Source: Allomuricauda ruestringensis DSM 13258
GTDB taxonomy: Bacteria; Bacteroidota; Bacteroidia; Flavobacteriales; Flavobacteriaceae
DNA length: 64,000 nucleotides
Assembly (NCBI RefSeq): GCF_000224085.1
Contig: NC_015945.1
Coordinates: forward strand, 1,561,501 to 1,625,500
Direction: 5' to 3'
The notes under the pieces: generated by a model
The model's input: the letters and a program-made list of their open reading frames with translations, nothing else
Told to the model about the DNA's origin: nothing
Database searches by the model: none
In this document: positions 48,928 to 55,512 of the stretch, in pieces
Layout of the letters: each line of letters starts with the position of its first letter
Numbering within the stretch: the first letter of the stretch is position 1
Position numbers and translations under genes: made by a program

Positions 48928-50313
48928 TTAATTTTGAATGCTTAATCCCCCGGCTTTATAGAAAACATCCTGAAGCGCCGTTCGGATATTTAAATTGTAG
49001 AGTTCCCGATGGTCTCTGGACGGATACACCCTGTTGGAAAGAAAAATAAAGGTAAGTTTGTTTTCGGGGTCGGCCCATACAAAGGTTCCCGTAAATCCCG
49101 AATGCCCAAAACTTTTGGGGCTGGTCAAAGGAGAGGGGTACGCTTCTTCCAATGGGAGTTCGGCATTATCCAGCAAGGGTTTGTCAAAACCCAGCCCCCT
49201 GCGGTTTTCGTTTTCGGGATACTGCACTTCTGTAAACTCTTTTACGGTTTGGGTTGAAATCAGCTGTTTGCCATCCACCTTGCCATAATTTTGATAAAAT
49301 AGCATCAATTTGGCCAGATCATCAGCCGTGCCAAATAATCCAGCATTACCGGAAACACCGCCTTTGAGTGAAGCATTTTCATCGTGAACCCAGCCTTTTA
49401 CCACCGTTTTTCGAAAGAGCGTATCCACTTCGGTAGGTACAATGGCATTTACGTAGTGGTTTTTGTTTGGCAAATAACCAAGGGTGTGACAACCCAAAGG
49501 ACGATAGAAATTTTCATCCAAGTAGGTTTGATAGTCGGTTCCTGAGAGCTGTTCAATCAATTTAGGAAAAATGAGAAAGGTGAGCCCGGAATACACGTAT
49601 TTCTTTTCATTTGAAACCTTGGACCGATTGATGATTCGGTTCATTTTTCGCTCAAAACGATCGTTGATGTAGAGACCATCATACACTTGTCCTTGAAATC
49701 TTTTATTGGATGAATTTTGGACAAAGCGTCTTTTGATTTTACCATTCTTCCGTAGCACTTTCTGCAAAAAAACGATGTAGGGCATCAAACCGGCCTGATG
49801 CGCCAAAATCTCCCGCAGGGTAAGGTCTTTTTTGTCCTTTCGATGTTGCCAGGGCTTCCAGTAGGTGCTGAAAGGCTTGTCCAAATCGAGTTTGCCCTCG
49901 TCCACCAACTTCATCAGGGCAGGCAAGGGCCCCGTGATTTTAGTAACGGAAGCTAAATCGTACAGGTCGTTCAAGGCAACGAGATGAATACTGTCGTAGG
50001 TGTGGAAGCCGTATGCTTTGTGAAAAATAACGGTATCGTTCTTAGCGACCAATAGTTGCGCTCCTGGAAAGGCCAAACTATCGATACCCATTTCCATAAT
50101 GGAATCCACCTTTTGGTTGATGAAAACTTCATCGAAGCCTAATTTGGACGGGTAGGCATGGATGAGCTCCCGTTGGGCAATACACTTTTCAGAAAAAAAA
50201 AGTATTGCAACACAAATTAAGGAACGCCTCGTTAATGTAGCCCAAAGAGTAATAATTTGAAAAAAATCTTTGATTTGAGATTTATCCAAATTAAAGAGTA
50301 ACCTTTTTTTCAA
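48928..50313 (-). CDS. Serine hydrolase, beta-lactamase class C family
   Basis: 461 aa. Penicillin-binding fold: Ser122-x-x-Lys125 (SVTK), YSGLTF in the Tyr-x-Gly/Asn position, and C-terminal GHSGFTGTF. The hydrophobic secretion-like segment (SLICVAILFFSEKCIAQ) begins only at about residue 31, so the first 30 residues are odd. They start inside the preceding 61-codon ORF (23 bp overlap), suggesting that the upstream insertion changed the original start. Resembles Bacteroidota exported esterase/DD-peptidase-like enzymes. Confidence 0.82.
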   Translation of the reverse strand: MKKRLLFNLDKSQIKDFFQIITLWATLTRRSLICVAILFFSEKCIAQRELIHAYPSKLGFDEVFINQKVDSIMEMGIDSLAFPGAQLLVAKNDTVIFHKAYGFHTYDSIHLVALNDLYDLASVTKITGPLPALMKLVDEGKLDLDKPFSTYWKPWQHRKDKKDLTLREILAHQAGLMPYIVFLQKVLRKNGKIKRRFVQNSSNKRFQGQVYDGLYINDRFERKMNRIINRSKVSNEKKYVYSGLTFLIFPKLIEQLSGTDYQTYLDENFYRPLGCHTLGYLPNKNHYVNAIVPTEVDTLFRKTVVKGWVHDENASLKGGVSGNAGLFGTADDLAKLMLFYQNYGKVDGKQLISTQTVKEFTEVQYPENENRRGLGFDKPLLDNAELPLEEAYPSPLTSPKSFGHSGFTGTFVWADPENKLTFIFLSNRVYPSRDHRELYNLNIRTALQDVFYKAGGLSIQN

Positions 50314-50476
50314 TAAGATTAAGCAGTTTTTTAGAAATTATTTCTGCTATTTCCTCTCCATCAGTTTCTTGTCCAATAACTCTTTCATCCAGAGATTCCT
50401 CTTTTTTCGACATTTTTTTCAATAATGCAGGAGTTAAAGTGTCGTATTTTGACTTTGGTGAGTTTTTAAGAAACAT
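50291..50476 (-). CDS. Small hypothetical protein (61 aa) next to the proteasome-like gene
   Basis: Highly charged, Lys/Glu-rich, predicted helical (EEIAEIISKKLLNLIEKK at the C-terminus). N-terminal TPALLKKMSKKEESLDE. No signal peptide or membrane segment. It follows the proteasome-fold gene by 22 bp on the same strand and overlaps the start of the serine hydrolase gene by 23 bp. AT-rich like its neighbour. Could be a substrate, adaptor or regulator of the hydrolase-fold protein (pure inference). Not recognised. Confidence 0.5.
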   Translation of the reverse strand: MFLKNSPKSKYDTLTPALLKKMSKKEESLDERVIGQETDGEEIAEIISKKLLNLIEKKVTL

Positions 50477-50498
50477 CGTGATTAAAATTTATTAATTA

Positions 50499-51785
50499 TT
50501 ATGTCCTAAAATAATTTTTTATAAAATGTGGATTATGGTTTTCTTCGAAATAATGCTTTCTTTTTATCCAAATGAAACCATCGCCTTTGGAAATAATCGC
50601 CACATCGACTGGTCCACCAACTGATTCTTCATCAGAACTAATTCTTCTTTTAAGATACGTCAAATATATTAAACTTTCGGCCATTTCCGCAAGGTCTTCC
50701 TTTGAAAGGATTGATACGGTATTCACAGTTGGTTGAATGTGCTTTATTTCTTTAACATTTTCAATTTCACTTACAAACTGACTGCATATTTGATTTATAT
50801 CTATTTCTTGTATTTCCTTCGCCAGTTTTGGTTGGTCTTTTTCAAGTAAGTTAATCAAATGATCATTATAACCATGGAGAAAACTTTTAAACGTAGAAAA
50901 AAGAGGTTCATTTATGTCGGGGCTTATTCCCGTAATAAGAGTGTCAATGACATCTCTTTGGGCAAAAGGCATAATGGATCCATTGTTGCCATCATCAATT
51001 TTTTCAACGTGTTCGGTATAGAATCTTATTTTATTATCGAAGATGTCTGAAATTTTTGTACTAATTGTGGTCGGGTAAATATCATCATCACCATAACCAG
51101 CAAAAACAAGTCCTGTCCATTGACCACGAAAAACCTTACTTTTTAAATAATGAAAAATCAAAGAAGAAAATTTTGCTTTGATTTTTTTTGTATTGAAATC
51201 CGAAAACTCTGTTTCCAATATTTCATCTAATTCAGCACCAATAATCTCATCAAATTTATTTTTGGTCAATGATTTGAAATCTGATAGTTTTTCTTCTGAT
51301 TTAATTTTTTGAATTTGAAATTCGATTATACTTAATAAATTCTCTTTGTAAATTGATTCTCTCTCTTTTTGTGATTTGGTTATTAAGTCAGAATAATCTT
51401 CGATTGCCTTTTCCATAGCCATTTCTGATAATTCATTAAATGAATGATATATAAGAGATTGAATGGAATGATTAATGGTTTCAGGAGTATTGAAAAATTC
51501 TCGTTCTTCCAGAAATTTAAAAAAGTCATCTGAATAATCTTTGAGATTAGGGAATGACTTGTCTCCTAATTCATTTCTATATATTTTGACAATTATTTCC
51601 CATGGCGTGGTTATGAAGTTTGCAGAATTATAAATAACAATGGAAACTGGATGATACTTTGAAAGGGTAAAGATTTTGTTTGCAGTATTATAGATTTTTC
51701 TCCCATTACTTCCAGAAACAGTAACGGCTGAATCAGCCGCCAATGCTACGGCATTTTTATTCAGTATTCCTATTACTGCCGTCAT
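50499..51785 (-). CDS. Uncharacterised proteasome-fold (Ntn-hydrolase) protein with helical insert
   Basis: 428 aa. After removal of Met1, Thr is residue 1 and ADSAVT places Asp at 17 and Thr at 21, as in proteasome beta and HslV subunits. NKIFTL resembles the strand that carries catalytic Lys33 (three residues later here). The C-terminal part again looks proteasome-like: a helix EDLAEMAESLIYLTY, then SVGGPVDVAIISKGDGFIWI. Between the two lies a long helical, Lys/Glu-rich region (about 75-215) and strands FAGYGDDDIYPT. This is much larger than HslV or Anbu subunits. The gene is AT-rich (roughly 30% GC by eye), lies between hemB and a serine hydrolase gene, and looks acquired. Self-processing activity and substrate are unknown. 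Confidence 0.75.
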   Translation of the reverse strand: MTAVIGILNKNAVALAADSAVTVSGSNGRKIYNTANKIFTLSKYHPVSIVIYNSANFITTPWEIIVKIYRNELGDKSFPNLKDYSDDFFKFLEEREFFNTPETINHSIQSLIYHSFNELSEMAMEKAIEDYSDLITKSQKERESIYKENLLSIIEFQIQKIKSEEKLSDFKSLTKNKFDEIIGAELDEILETEFSDFNTKKIKAKFSSLIFHYLKSKVFRGQWTGLVFAGYGDDDIYPTTISTKISDIFDNKIRFYTEHVEKIDDGNNGSIMPFAQRDVIDTLITGISPDINEPLFSTFKSFLHGYNDHLINLLEKDQPKLAKEIQEIDINQICSQFVSEIENVKEIKHIQPTVNTVSILSKEDLAEMAESLIYLTYLKRRISSDEESVGGPVDVAIISKGDGFIWIKRKHYFEENHNPHFIKNYFRT

Positions 51786-51803
51786 ATTGTTTTTTTAACA
51801 ATA

Positions 51804-52793
51804 TTAGTGAAATATTCTGATAAAATCCTTCGCAAAGTAACTGGCGATAATATTGGCACCGGCTCTTTTAATGGCCGTAAGCTGTTCCAACATCACGGCA
51901 TCGTGATCCAACCACCCTTTTTCGGCAGCGGCTTTTACCATGGCATACTCTCCGGAAACTTGATAAACGGCAACCGGGACATCTACATCGTTTCGGATTT
52001 CCCGAACGATGTCCAAATAGCACAATCCAGGTTTTACCATTACAATATCGGCTCCTTCGTCAATGTCCATTTGGGTTTCTTTGATGGCTTCATACCGATT
52101 GGCATAATCCATTTGATAGGTCTTTTTGTCCTTGGGCACATTGGCAATATCCACGGGTGCGGAATCCAAGGCATCGCGGAACGGTCCGTAAAATGCGCTG
52201 GCGTATTTGGCAGAATAGGCCATAATGCCCGTATTGGTGAATCCTTCATCCTCCAAAGCCTCTCGGATGGTCAAAATTCTACCGTCCATCATATCGCTGG
52301 GGGCTACAAAGTCGGCCCCAGCTTTGGCATGGGAGACGCTCATTTCTGCCAAAACCTCTGTAGTTTCATCGTTCAAGATTTGACCTTCGGCAACAATGCC
52401 ATCGTGTCCATAAGAGGAAAATGGGTCCAGGGCAACGTCCGTCATCACCAACATTTGTGGACAGGCGTTTTTTACTGTTTTTATGGCACGTTGCATCAAA
52501 CCGTTCGGATTTAAGGCCTCGGTTCCTTTGTTATCTTTAAGTTTATCATCAACCTTTACAAAAAGAAGCACGGAACAAAGTCCCATTTTCCAGAGTTCCT
52601 TCACTTCTTTTTCAAGATTGTCCAAACTCAACCTAAAATAGTTGGGCATGGAAGGTATTTCTTCCCTAATTCCTTTTCCTTCTGTCACAAATAAAGGCAC
52701 CAGAAAGTCGTCTGGCGTCAAGGTGGTTTCCCGAACCAATCTTCTAATGGATTCGGATGCGCGTAGTCTTCTGTTTCGTATGAGTGGGTACAT
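51804..52793 (-). CDS. hemB: Porphobilinogen synthase (delta-aminolevulinic acid dehydratase)
   Basis: 329 aa. Condenses two 5-aminolevulinate into porphobilinogen. Schiff-base lysines Lys196 (AYSAKYASAF) and Lys254 (VMVKPG). The segment DVALDPFSSYGHDG replaces the three-cysteine zinc site, so this is the Zn-independent, Mg-type enzyme. Last heme gene of the cluster in the direction of transcription, separated from hemF by PhzF and an inserted RM pair. Confidence 0.97.
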   Translation of the reverse strand: MYPLIRNRRLRASESIRRLVRETTLTPDDFLVPLFVTEGKGIREEIPSMPNYFRLSLDNLEKEVKELWKMGLCSVLLFVKVDDKLKDNKGTEALNPNGLMQRAIKTVKNACPQMLVMTDVALDPFSSYGHDGIVAEGQILNDETTEVLAEMSVSHAKAGADFVAPSDMMDGRILTIREALEDEGFTNTGIMAYSAKYASAFYGPFRDALDSAPVDIANVPKDKKTYQMDYANRYEAIKETQMDIDEGADIVMVKPGLCYLDIVREIRNDVDVPVAVYQVSGEYAMVKAAAEKGWLDHDAVMLEQLTAIKRAGANIIASYFAKDFIRIFH

Positions 52794-53683: not shown

Positions 53684-54667
53684 TTAATACTTGAGAATAT
53701 TATTGAGTGTAGTTTTTTCATCTAATTTTAGCAATAATTGTTCAGGCAAATCATAAACTTTAGGTTTAGAAGTCAATTGAGATTTGTCGTTTTTAATTCG
53801 AGATTTCATCTCAGAATTTGAGATGCTATCTTTCAATTCAATATTTGATAAAATTGCTTCATAAACTGCATTTCGATTAGTTTCCTTACCACCCACGTGA
53901 TAAAAATGTTCTTTTGTTGCTATGAAACAGTTCTCCCAAACTGAAAAAATATAATCGTTAGTTCTATATTTATTGCTTAACCAAGTTGAAAGAATGAACT
54001 TGCAGTTTGATTCCTCTAAGCCTTTATTTAATAAGATTTCTTCCTTTTCTGTCCAACTATCAAAATAATCAACGTGTCTTCCAATATAAGGTGGGTCAGA
54101 ATAAACAAAATCAGTACTTTTTAATTCTGACAAAGTTTCTTCAAAATCTTGGTGTTTAAATTCATAATCTCCTTGTTCAATAATCTTAGAGATATTTTCT
54201 ACTTGATTAGTTATTTTGGTAACTAATGCTTGTGCAAATCGATTTGGTTTTTTACAGAATGGGACATTAAAACCTCCTTTTTTATTGAATCTCATCATTC
54301 CATTAAAGCAGGAACGACTTAGAAACAAAAAGTCTAAAGGGTTCCCTTTTTCATTGAAACGATTTCGAACTGTATAGTAGTGTTCTCCTTCTGTTCCTAA
54401 TAGTTTTTGACCTTCTTCATTCAAAAAATCTTTTACAATTCCGTTTGTTATTTCTTTGTTTTGAACCGCCTTGTAAAAGTTTATTAAGTGTGGATTGCTA
54501 TCACAGAGTAATGCTCTTTTTGGTCGAACATTAAAAGCAACAACACCTGTTCCCATAAAAGGCTCGACCCAACGGTCATAGGATACTTCATTTACGTTTG
54601 AAGAAATCCATTCAACAAGTTTGGTTTTGATACCTTGTGATTTTATAGGAGGAACAAATACTTTCAT
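53684..54667 (-). CDS. D12-class DNA adenine-N6 methyltransferase, M.EcoRV-like
   Basis: 327 aa. N-terminal [15 protein letters not shown]; motif [15 protein letters not shown]; catalytic motif IV DPPY at 191-194; a C-terminal [15 protein letters not shown]. Dam-like alpha-type N6-adenine methyltransferase; by its partner it should modify GATATC. Its ATG overlaps the stop of the endonuclease gene by 4 bp. AT-rich relative to hem genes; likely acquired with the endonuclease. Confidence 0.93.
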
Positions 54668-55512
54668 TTCTTGTTTTTTCGTTTAGGTTTCATTGGATTT
54701 ATTTTATCCGAACCCATTCCTTTAAATTCAAGAAACTCAGTTAATTTTGTCAACTTTTTAAAATTGCCTGCTTTCTTTGGGTCGGGAACTTTTAAAACAC
54801 CTTGATTTATCCAATATTCATCAAATATTTTTTCTCCAAGATTTTTGAATACACCATTTCCTTTAAGAATATCATCTATGTATTGAATACTTCCGATGTT
54901 TGCCGTATTTCCGCTGCCACCTTTATCACTCGAAATCTTCCATTTTTCTTCTGCGAAGAAAACGAGGTCTTTTATGACTGAAGTGATTTTGTCTAATTCA
55001 TTTAATTGAAGAATTTTAGTTTCATCAATGTCTGTGGATAAAGCTCTTGTGTATAAAATCCCTAAACAAATATGAGCTGTATAATCGGCATACGGAAATT
55101 GAATGTTTTTTGTGCTTGTTCTTTTTCTAAAATATTCTCCGTGAGAACCAAGAGTAAATCCATTGCAAAATCCATCATAGTCGTCTAATCGGTAAGTTGT
55201 TTTTATATCAACTGCGAATTTGATTTTTGGATTTGATTTATTTACAAAAGACAAATCTGGATACCAATTCTGCTTTTCTGCAAGAACTATATCATAACCG
55301 TTTTGGTCGGCAAATTCTTGAAATTTTGGGAAAAGTTGAATTTCAAGAATTTTAGAGATTATTTTGGTGTCAGAAGATATAGTATAAATACTCTTTTCTA
55401 TGTCGATAAACCCCTTTACTTTCCAGTCCCCAACTTTGTCTGAAACGTATTCAGTTAGTTCTTTTGAAAAGTCTTTAAGTTTATCTAAAAAATCTTTTTT
55501 TACATTACTCAT
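54664..55512 (-). CDS. EcoRV-family type II restriction endonuclease
   Basis: 282 aa (EcoRV itself 245). Active-site residues match EcoRV Asp74, Asp90 and Lys92: Asp86 in WYPDLSF, Asp102 and Lys104 in AVDIKTTYR, with the same 16-residue spacing. [24 protein letters not shown] and the DNA-recognition loop [11 protein letters not shown] also align with EcoRV. Predicted to cut GATATC bluntly; the recognition is inferred from homology. First gene of the RM pair. It lies between hemF and the PhzF gene. Confidence 0.93.

Follow-up and report, generated by a model that had tools for sequence, protein, structure and literature searches.

Behind hemB, Allomuricauda ruestringensis DSM 13258 carries a two-gene unit consisting of an enzyme with a predicted proteasome fold and conserved catalytic residues and a small partner open reading frame (ORF), which is also conserved. 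The two genes are transferred between genomes as a unit and sit at accessory positions. In the 64,000-nucleotide window that we analyzed (NC_015945.1, positions 1,561,501 to 1,625,500), both ORFs lie on the minus strand exactly where an earlier note, made from the sequence alone, had placed them (Table 1). The partner ORF starts 22 nt past the enzyme stop codon, and the pair is flanked by hemB (51804-52793) and a gene for a beta-lactamase-fold hydrolase. The description of an AT-rich pair within a heme gene run also holds, with GC contents of 0.308 for the large ORF, 0.296 for the small ORF, and 0.454 for hemB. Promoter-like scans gave no signal above shuffle level.

Table 1. Features of the two-gene unit (positions are those of the window)
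Feature	Position	Strand	Basis
428-aa proteasome-fold Ntn hydrolase, probable PMI-4 member	50499..51785	-	ORF, phrog_5990 match, predicted model, structure comparison, alignment
61-aa charged small partner	50291..50476	-	ORF list; partner conservation; dN/dS
Insertion between hemB and hydrolase gene, approximate	50290..51815	.	Flanks of occupied versus empty sites, by eye
Thr2 codon, predicted nucleophile after Met1 removal	51780..51782	-	Alignment; aligned with chain residue 1 of beta subunits
Asp18 codon (Asp17 equivalent)	51732..51734	-	46/46
Lys37 codon (Lys33 equivalent)	51675..51677	-	46/46
SVGGPVDVAIISKGDG block, aligned with ASGGMIDVAVITRKDG of Thermoplasma beta	50577..50624	-	Profile alignment
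First helical insertion, ~residues 95-222, after first helix pair	51120..51503	-	Model secondary structure; borders by eye
Second helical insertion, ~residues 286-361, within second helix pair	50703..50930	-	Model secondary structure; borders by eye

Predicted fold and active site of the enzyme

Profile searches placed the enzyme in a family of unknown function, phrog_5990, which matches residues 1 to 425 (E = 1.3e-112). The Pfam Proteasome profile aligned with residues 2 to 39 at an E value of 0.0059, under its cut-off, and matched 8 of 46 family members at E values up to 0.1. No NCBIfam family reached its cut-off against the enzyme, and PADLOC-DB 2.0.0 (2023) returned a single chance-level row for the enzyme (E = 0.61) and none for the partner. 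Both Foldseek and VIA group the enzyme with proteasome relatives. The proteasome fold is supported by the predicted model and by structure comparison.

Thr2, Asp18, Thr22, Lys37 of an NKIF strand, and the SVGGPVDVAIISKGDG block, all pointed out in the earlier note, are present. In an alignment of 46 family members (A2, window included), residues 2 and 22 are each Thr in 45 sequences and Ser in 1, and Asp18 and Lys37 are invariant, so that the two residues whose conservation the note had made its check, Thr2 and Asp18, are indeed kept in homologues. Across 101 loci, several of them near-identical copies, residue 2 is Thr in 99 and Ser in 2. Together with the predicted fold, these residues support the note's reading of an unusual Ntn hydrolase in which Thr2 serves as the catalytic residue. 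In the profile alignment and in A2, the equivalent of Ser169 is Val and that of Asp166 is out of register; by eye, the Ser129 equivalent is out of register as well.

The extra length of the enzyme comes from helical insertions in the predicted model. A large helical insert had been proposed and is present, only as two inserts and not one, and the helices at 62-73 and 81-94 (corresponding to H1/H2) are retained. Methionine aminopeptidase would suffice to expose a Thr2 placed directly after Met1, and self-cleavage would therefore be unnecessary for activation.

A conserved partner and a mobile pair

To survey the partner, we reduced the 101 loci to 56 at <75% identity, 54 of which had room for the test, and looked for ATG-started ORFs of 35 to 80 codons whose start falls between -35 and +60 nt of the enzyme stop. 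Such an ORF was present in 51 of the 54 loci, compared with 33 of 194 control ORFs (further ORFs from these loci with a length of 250 aa or more), which upholds the proposal of a two-gene pair; a ribosome-site-like word accompanied it in 25 of 54 loci and 10 of 194 controls. Three loci have no qualifying partner. In L071, a GTG-started 69-aa ORF occupies the partner position; the other two are L013 and L076, whose enzymes have C-terminal extensions. We dropped the idea of an enzyme-partner fusion in the latter two, as the extensions are unlike partners by eye. Escherichia coli strain H3 has an unannotated 49-aa ORF 23 nt past the enzyme gene.

Between near relatives, the substitution pattern of the 61-aa ORF is that of coding DNA under purifying selection (window versus A. 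chongwuensis: dN, 0.050, and dS, 0.878, for the partner; dN, 0.062, and dS, 1.269, for the enzyme). These values and the 51/54 versus 33/194 comparison argue against a chance small ORF. Beyond near relatives, the partner evolves faster than the enzyme: a third species with the pair at hemB has 46% partner identity and 68% enzyme identity to the window, and in the prophage pairs compared, the values are 38 to 69% and 63 to 74%, respectively. The 51 partners are hydrophilic, with a median length of 59 aa (35 to 79), and share no obvious constant motif by eye. A membrane-active partner was rejected, as none of the 51 contains a 19-residue segment with hydropathy of >1.6. In searches of Pfam, PADLOC, NCBIfam, and PHROG, the window partner gave no match except one chance-level NCBIfam row, and no DNA-binding or other antitoxin domain was found in it with the same profile sets. 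Joint structure prediction, which the earlier note had suggested, lent no support to docking of the partner on the enzyme: in one tethered AlphaFold2 run, with the L101 enzyme and partner as one chain and seven partner sequences, the partner had a pLDDT of <50, which is weak evidence either way.

Full-length relatives of the enzyme exist in phages, satellites, plasmids, and E. coli prophages, a distribution that the earlier note had missed. Relatives were found in 13 of 50,697 phage records (9 Streptococcus, 2 Stenotrophomonas, 1 Porphyromonas, and 1 Providencia), satellites accounting for 7 of the 9 Streptococcus records. Matches also occurred in 10 of 72,556 plasmids (8 with at least 80% covered), 9 of 5,426 E. 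coli genomes, and 10 of 395 Bacteroidota genomes (6 full-length, own included), and IMG/VR yielded 167 relatives, of which 80 were kept. Two Bacteroidota hits (L023 and L025) appear to be false positives. Two others, L022:1465-2262 (265 aa) and L024:1477-2214 (245 aa), are short proteins that begin with Met-Ser and carry a similar GG-ID and W-RK signature at the C terminus; neither contains a large insertion or matches Pfam, and they are perhaps uninserted relatives.

The pair moves as one unit between genomes. Between two Bacteroidota loci from different genera (L109 and L110), a 2,357-bp block around the pair is 94.4% identical, and elsewhere the loci match only in two pieces of ~100 bp. In the two E. 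coli prophages inspected, the enzyme gene is antisense between the Q antiterminator and DNA methyltransferase genes, with a short ORF between. In three inspected Streptococcus satellites, the pair follows, or shares a slot with, a Gp49/HTH toxin-antitoxin-like pair; it comes last in two of them and is followed by further cargo in Javan421. Nine Streptococcus satellites have the same regulator; two near relatives among them, Javan99 and Javan342, do not carry the pair and show a short ORF or a different gene in its place. The pair of Porphyromonas phage 022a is located within the block of structural genes.

Within the genus, phrog_5990 was found in 3 of 71 genomes (own included), namely, the window genome, A. 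chongwuensis, and one further species (G069), and in all three the pair is directly behind hemB. In a survey of 24 genus genomes, hemB was found in 22, 2 of which were occupied; the pair was absent at all 20 other hemB loci. In 16 of these 20, the hydrolase gene directly follows hemB, and the remaining 4 had no hydrolase match in the flank examined. Side-by-side comparison of the flanks, with approximate ends, indicates that the insertion replaces the final hemB codons. In the window, the sequence past the partner stop again resembles the empty site, and no right insertion edge can be made out in the two further occupied genomes. The hydrolase gene after the insertion (window 50200-50313) is apparently devoid of the ATG start of its empty-site relatives, and a TTG at 50313, overlapping the partner ORF, is the first start listed for it. 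In G069, the partner is followed by an 11-pair terminator-like hairpin; none was found after the partner in the window.

Trees of hemB, phzF, and the hydrolase gene scatter the three occupied genomes among empty-site ones. As the hemB-enzyme spacer looks alike in the three species, independent insertions are disfavored, and we prefer loss or transfer of one insertion. The pair had been described as a recent acquisition; acquisition into the heme run stands, given the 20 pair-free loci, and "recent" is too strong, since the pair occupies one and the same site in three species, and the enzymes of the other two are 88% and 68% identical to the window copy.

The heme gene run seems to accept small insertions at several places. 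An EcoRV-type restriction endonuclease (PF09233; E = 2.6e-126) and a Dam-type methyltransferase (MTase_II; E = 6.2e-130) are inserted in the same run at 53684-55512, 1.9 kb upstream of the enzyme pair, with a GC content of 0.308. A. chongwuensis has phzF directly after hemF, with no EcoRV-type pair, and carries between phzF and hemB a separate 119-aa ORF (L001:6603-6962) that by eye resembles the 23S rRNA intervening-sequence (four-helix bundle) protein.

Neighboring genes and possible roles

Defense systems tend to gather in the cargo slots of satellites, among antisense genes of prophages, and near restriction genes. The pair occupies such satellite, antisense prophage, and restriction sites, and we therefore favor an anti-phage reading: anti-phage defense or superinfection exclusion is tentatively the likeliest role for this mobile accessory module with its proteasome-type active site. 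Repressor, Q, and endolysin families among the IMG/VR neighbors likewise fit a cargo position. Pfam gave 46 families for 42 neighbors at five chromosomal Bacteroidota loci (counts pooled over loci, with no random-gene baseline); among the first 25 of these, HsdR, HsdS, an Eco57I-type methylase, AbiEii, a Schlafen-group helicase, and a Fic C-terminal domain occurred once each, and SmpB, arginine deiminase, and an M50 peptidase occurred twice each. A PADLOC scan of 10 of the neighbors matched 5 and gave no defense model for the other 5. One locus (L111) has type I HsdS and HsdR, a 766-aa GajB/RT-associated helicase, and, by eye, an HsdM-like gene; L109 has a type IIG enzyme, and L110 has a PDC-S60 match over part of its length. 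Counting the last, defense genes lie near three of the five loci and in the window, again as raw counts without a baseline.

In the mechanism that we envisage, Met1 would be removed and Thr2 would become the nucleophile, with Asp18 and Lys37 completing a proteasome-type active site. The enzyme would cleave proteins; its two helical insertions probably replace ring assembly and ATPase gating, and we propose that it therefore hits particular targets and not bulk unfolded protein. The partner, which is short and charged and changes fast, probably acts as a regulator of the enzyme or delivers its targets, and the module would act against phages. A more specific version, which is possible but doubtful, is a widespread immune module in which an unfoldase-free proteasome-fold threonine protease, gated by helical lids and a fast-evolving disordered partner of ~60 residues, recognizes an infecting phage and breaks down a protein of the phage or the host. 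Against the favored reading as a whole stand the pLDDT of <50 of the tethered partner and the equivalents of Ser129, Asp166, and Ser169 being out of register. The defense module suggested in the earlier note gains circumstantial support from positions and restriction neighbors but matches no PADLOC model. Also counting against defense are the five scanned neighbors with no defense match, the arginine deiminase, SmpB, and M50 peptidase genes, and the place of the pair within structural genes in Porphyromonas phage 022a; lysogenic-conversion or addiction genes, moreover, use the same kinds of slot.

An addiction (toxin-antitoxin) module, in which a harmful protease and a small inhibitor stabilize mobile elements and affect phages only incidentally, would fit two genes with a short second one, their presence on mobile elements and plasmids, and the toxin-antitoxin-like pairs before the unit or in its slot in the three satellites. 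The patchy presence and easy absence at hemB do not suggest addiction, however, and the window partner has no antitoxin domain, making this explanation unlikely. ImmA-type proteases govern prophages by cleaving regulators, and the enzyme might similarly cut a repressor or other regulator that controls lysogeny or induction. Repressor families are the commonest PHROGs among the 147 neighboring ORFs at 40 IMG/VR loci (phrog_4, 12; phrog_8, 10; phrog_2328, 8; a Q family and an endolysin family account for 4 and 3), but these are raw counts of families, not loci, with no baseline, and repressors are common in prophages. As no repressor is adjacent at hemB or, among the matches listed, at several Bacteroidota loci, we consider prophage control distinctly improbable.

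Foldseek and VIA place the enzyme with other proteasome relatives, which use ATPases for bulk protein degradation, and this would agree with a general role in protein quality control or with some other metabolic hydrolase encoded on accessory DNA. No ATPase gene was found beside the enzyme in the window, however, and the pair is mobile and patchy, which makes such a role very unlikely. We give the least credence to a ligase- or transpeptidase-like enzyme that joins or trims the small partner instead of acting as a protease. Such an activity is known from connectase, described as a specific ligase with a proteasome fold and a helical insertion (PMC8665760), and the conserved, dedicated short partner would suit it, as would multiubiquitin and ThiF E1 genes near the pair at four Rhizobium/Mesorhizobium plasmid loci (L009, L010, L136, and L013). 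Yet the insertion sites differ from those described for connectase, the partners lack an obvious constant motif, and the rhizobial neighborhood is not general. At L009, a single protein combines Multi_ubiq with Prok-E2_E according to Pfam, which also identified DUF6527 and a ClpP/SDH-like protease there.

The cargo slots that the pair takes up in prophages and satellites, together with its restriction gene neighbors, point to a testable role. If the partner controls or feeds the enzyme, the pair would show a proteasome fold working without a gating ATPase, and if the immune-module reading is true, a proteasome relative would be used as a bacterial antiviral effector.

Comparison with known proteasome-like families

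A literature search, with few subscription papers and no bioRxiv preprints in its scope, turned up no account of what this family does. Twenty-two proteasome-like families were named in 2021, in the passages cited here with no hint of a function from co-occurrence or genomic context (Fuchs, Alva and Lupas 2021, PMC8665760). Among them, PMI-4 is a proteasome homolog with multiple insertions, found in Proteobacteria, Firmicutes, Bacteroidetes, and phages (Table 1 of that paper). Insertions after H1/H2 and between H3/H4 are described for PMI-3 and PMI-4, and of the PMI groups only PMI-4 is marked for phages. Our enzyme resembles PMI-4 in having the Thr1/Asp17/Lys33 triad in a proteasome-like fold with no propeptide, in its insertions after H1/H2 and between H3/H4 (helices mapped by eye; PMI-3 shares both sites), and in the occurrence of relatives in phages, Firmicutes, and Bacteroidetes. 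From both insertion sites and the phage mark, the family is therefore likely PMI-4, as assigned by the paper's description and not by sequence comparison; the earlier note had missed this architecture. In contrast to the published account, which in those passages gives no context, the family here has a conserved partner ORF and cargo positions. One of the larger families named in 2021, probably PMI-4, would thus gain a conserved partner gene and a minimal two-gene mobile unit.

Connectase, a proteasome-like ligase whose specificity is set by a helical insertion, is described as lacking H1/H2 and having its insertion between S3 and S4 (PMC8665760). The enzyme is likewise proteasome-like and bears helical insertions, but it keeps H1/H2 and has insertions at other sites. 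Anbu is shorter (~235 aa versus 428 aa), lacks the two large helical insertions, and has a long C-terminal helix H5 (coiled coil), whereas the enzyme has only a short helix at 419-424, within a low-confidence tail. With 20S beta subunits and HslV, the enzyme shares the fold and the catalytic Thr, Asp, and Lys but differs in its large insertions, in the change of Ser169 to Val, and in the register of Asp166; unlike HslV, it has no HslU ATPase beside it, its neighbors in the window being hemB and the beta-lactamase-fold hydrolase.
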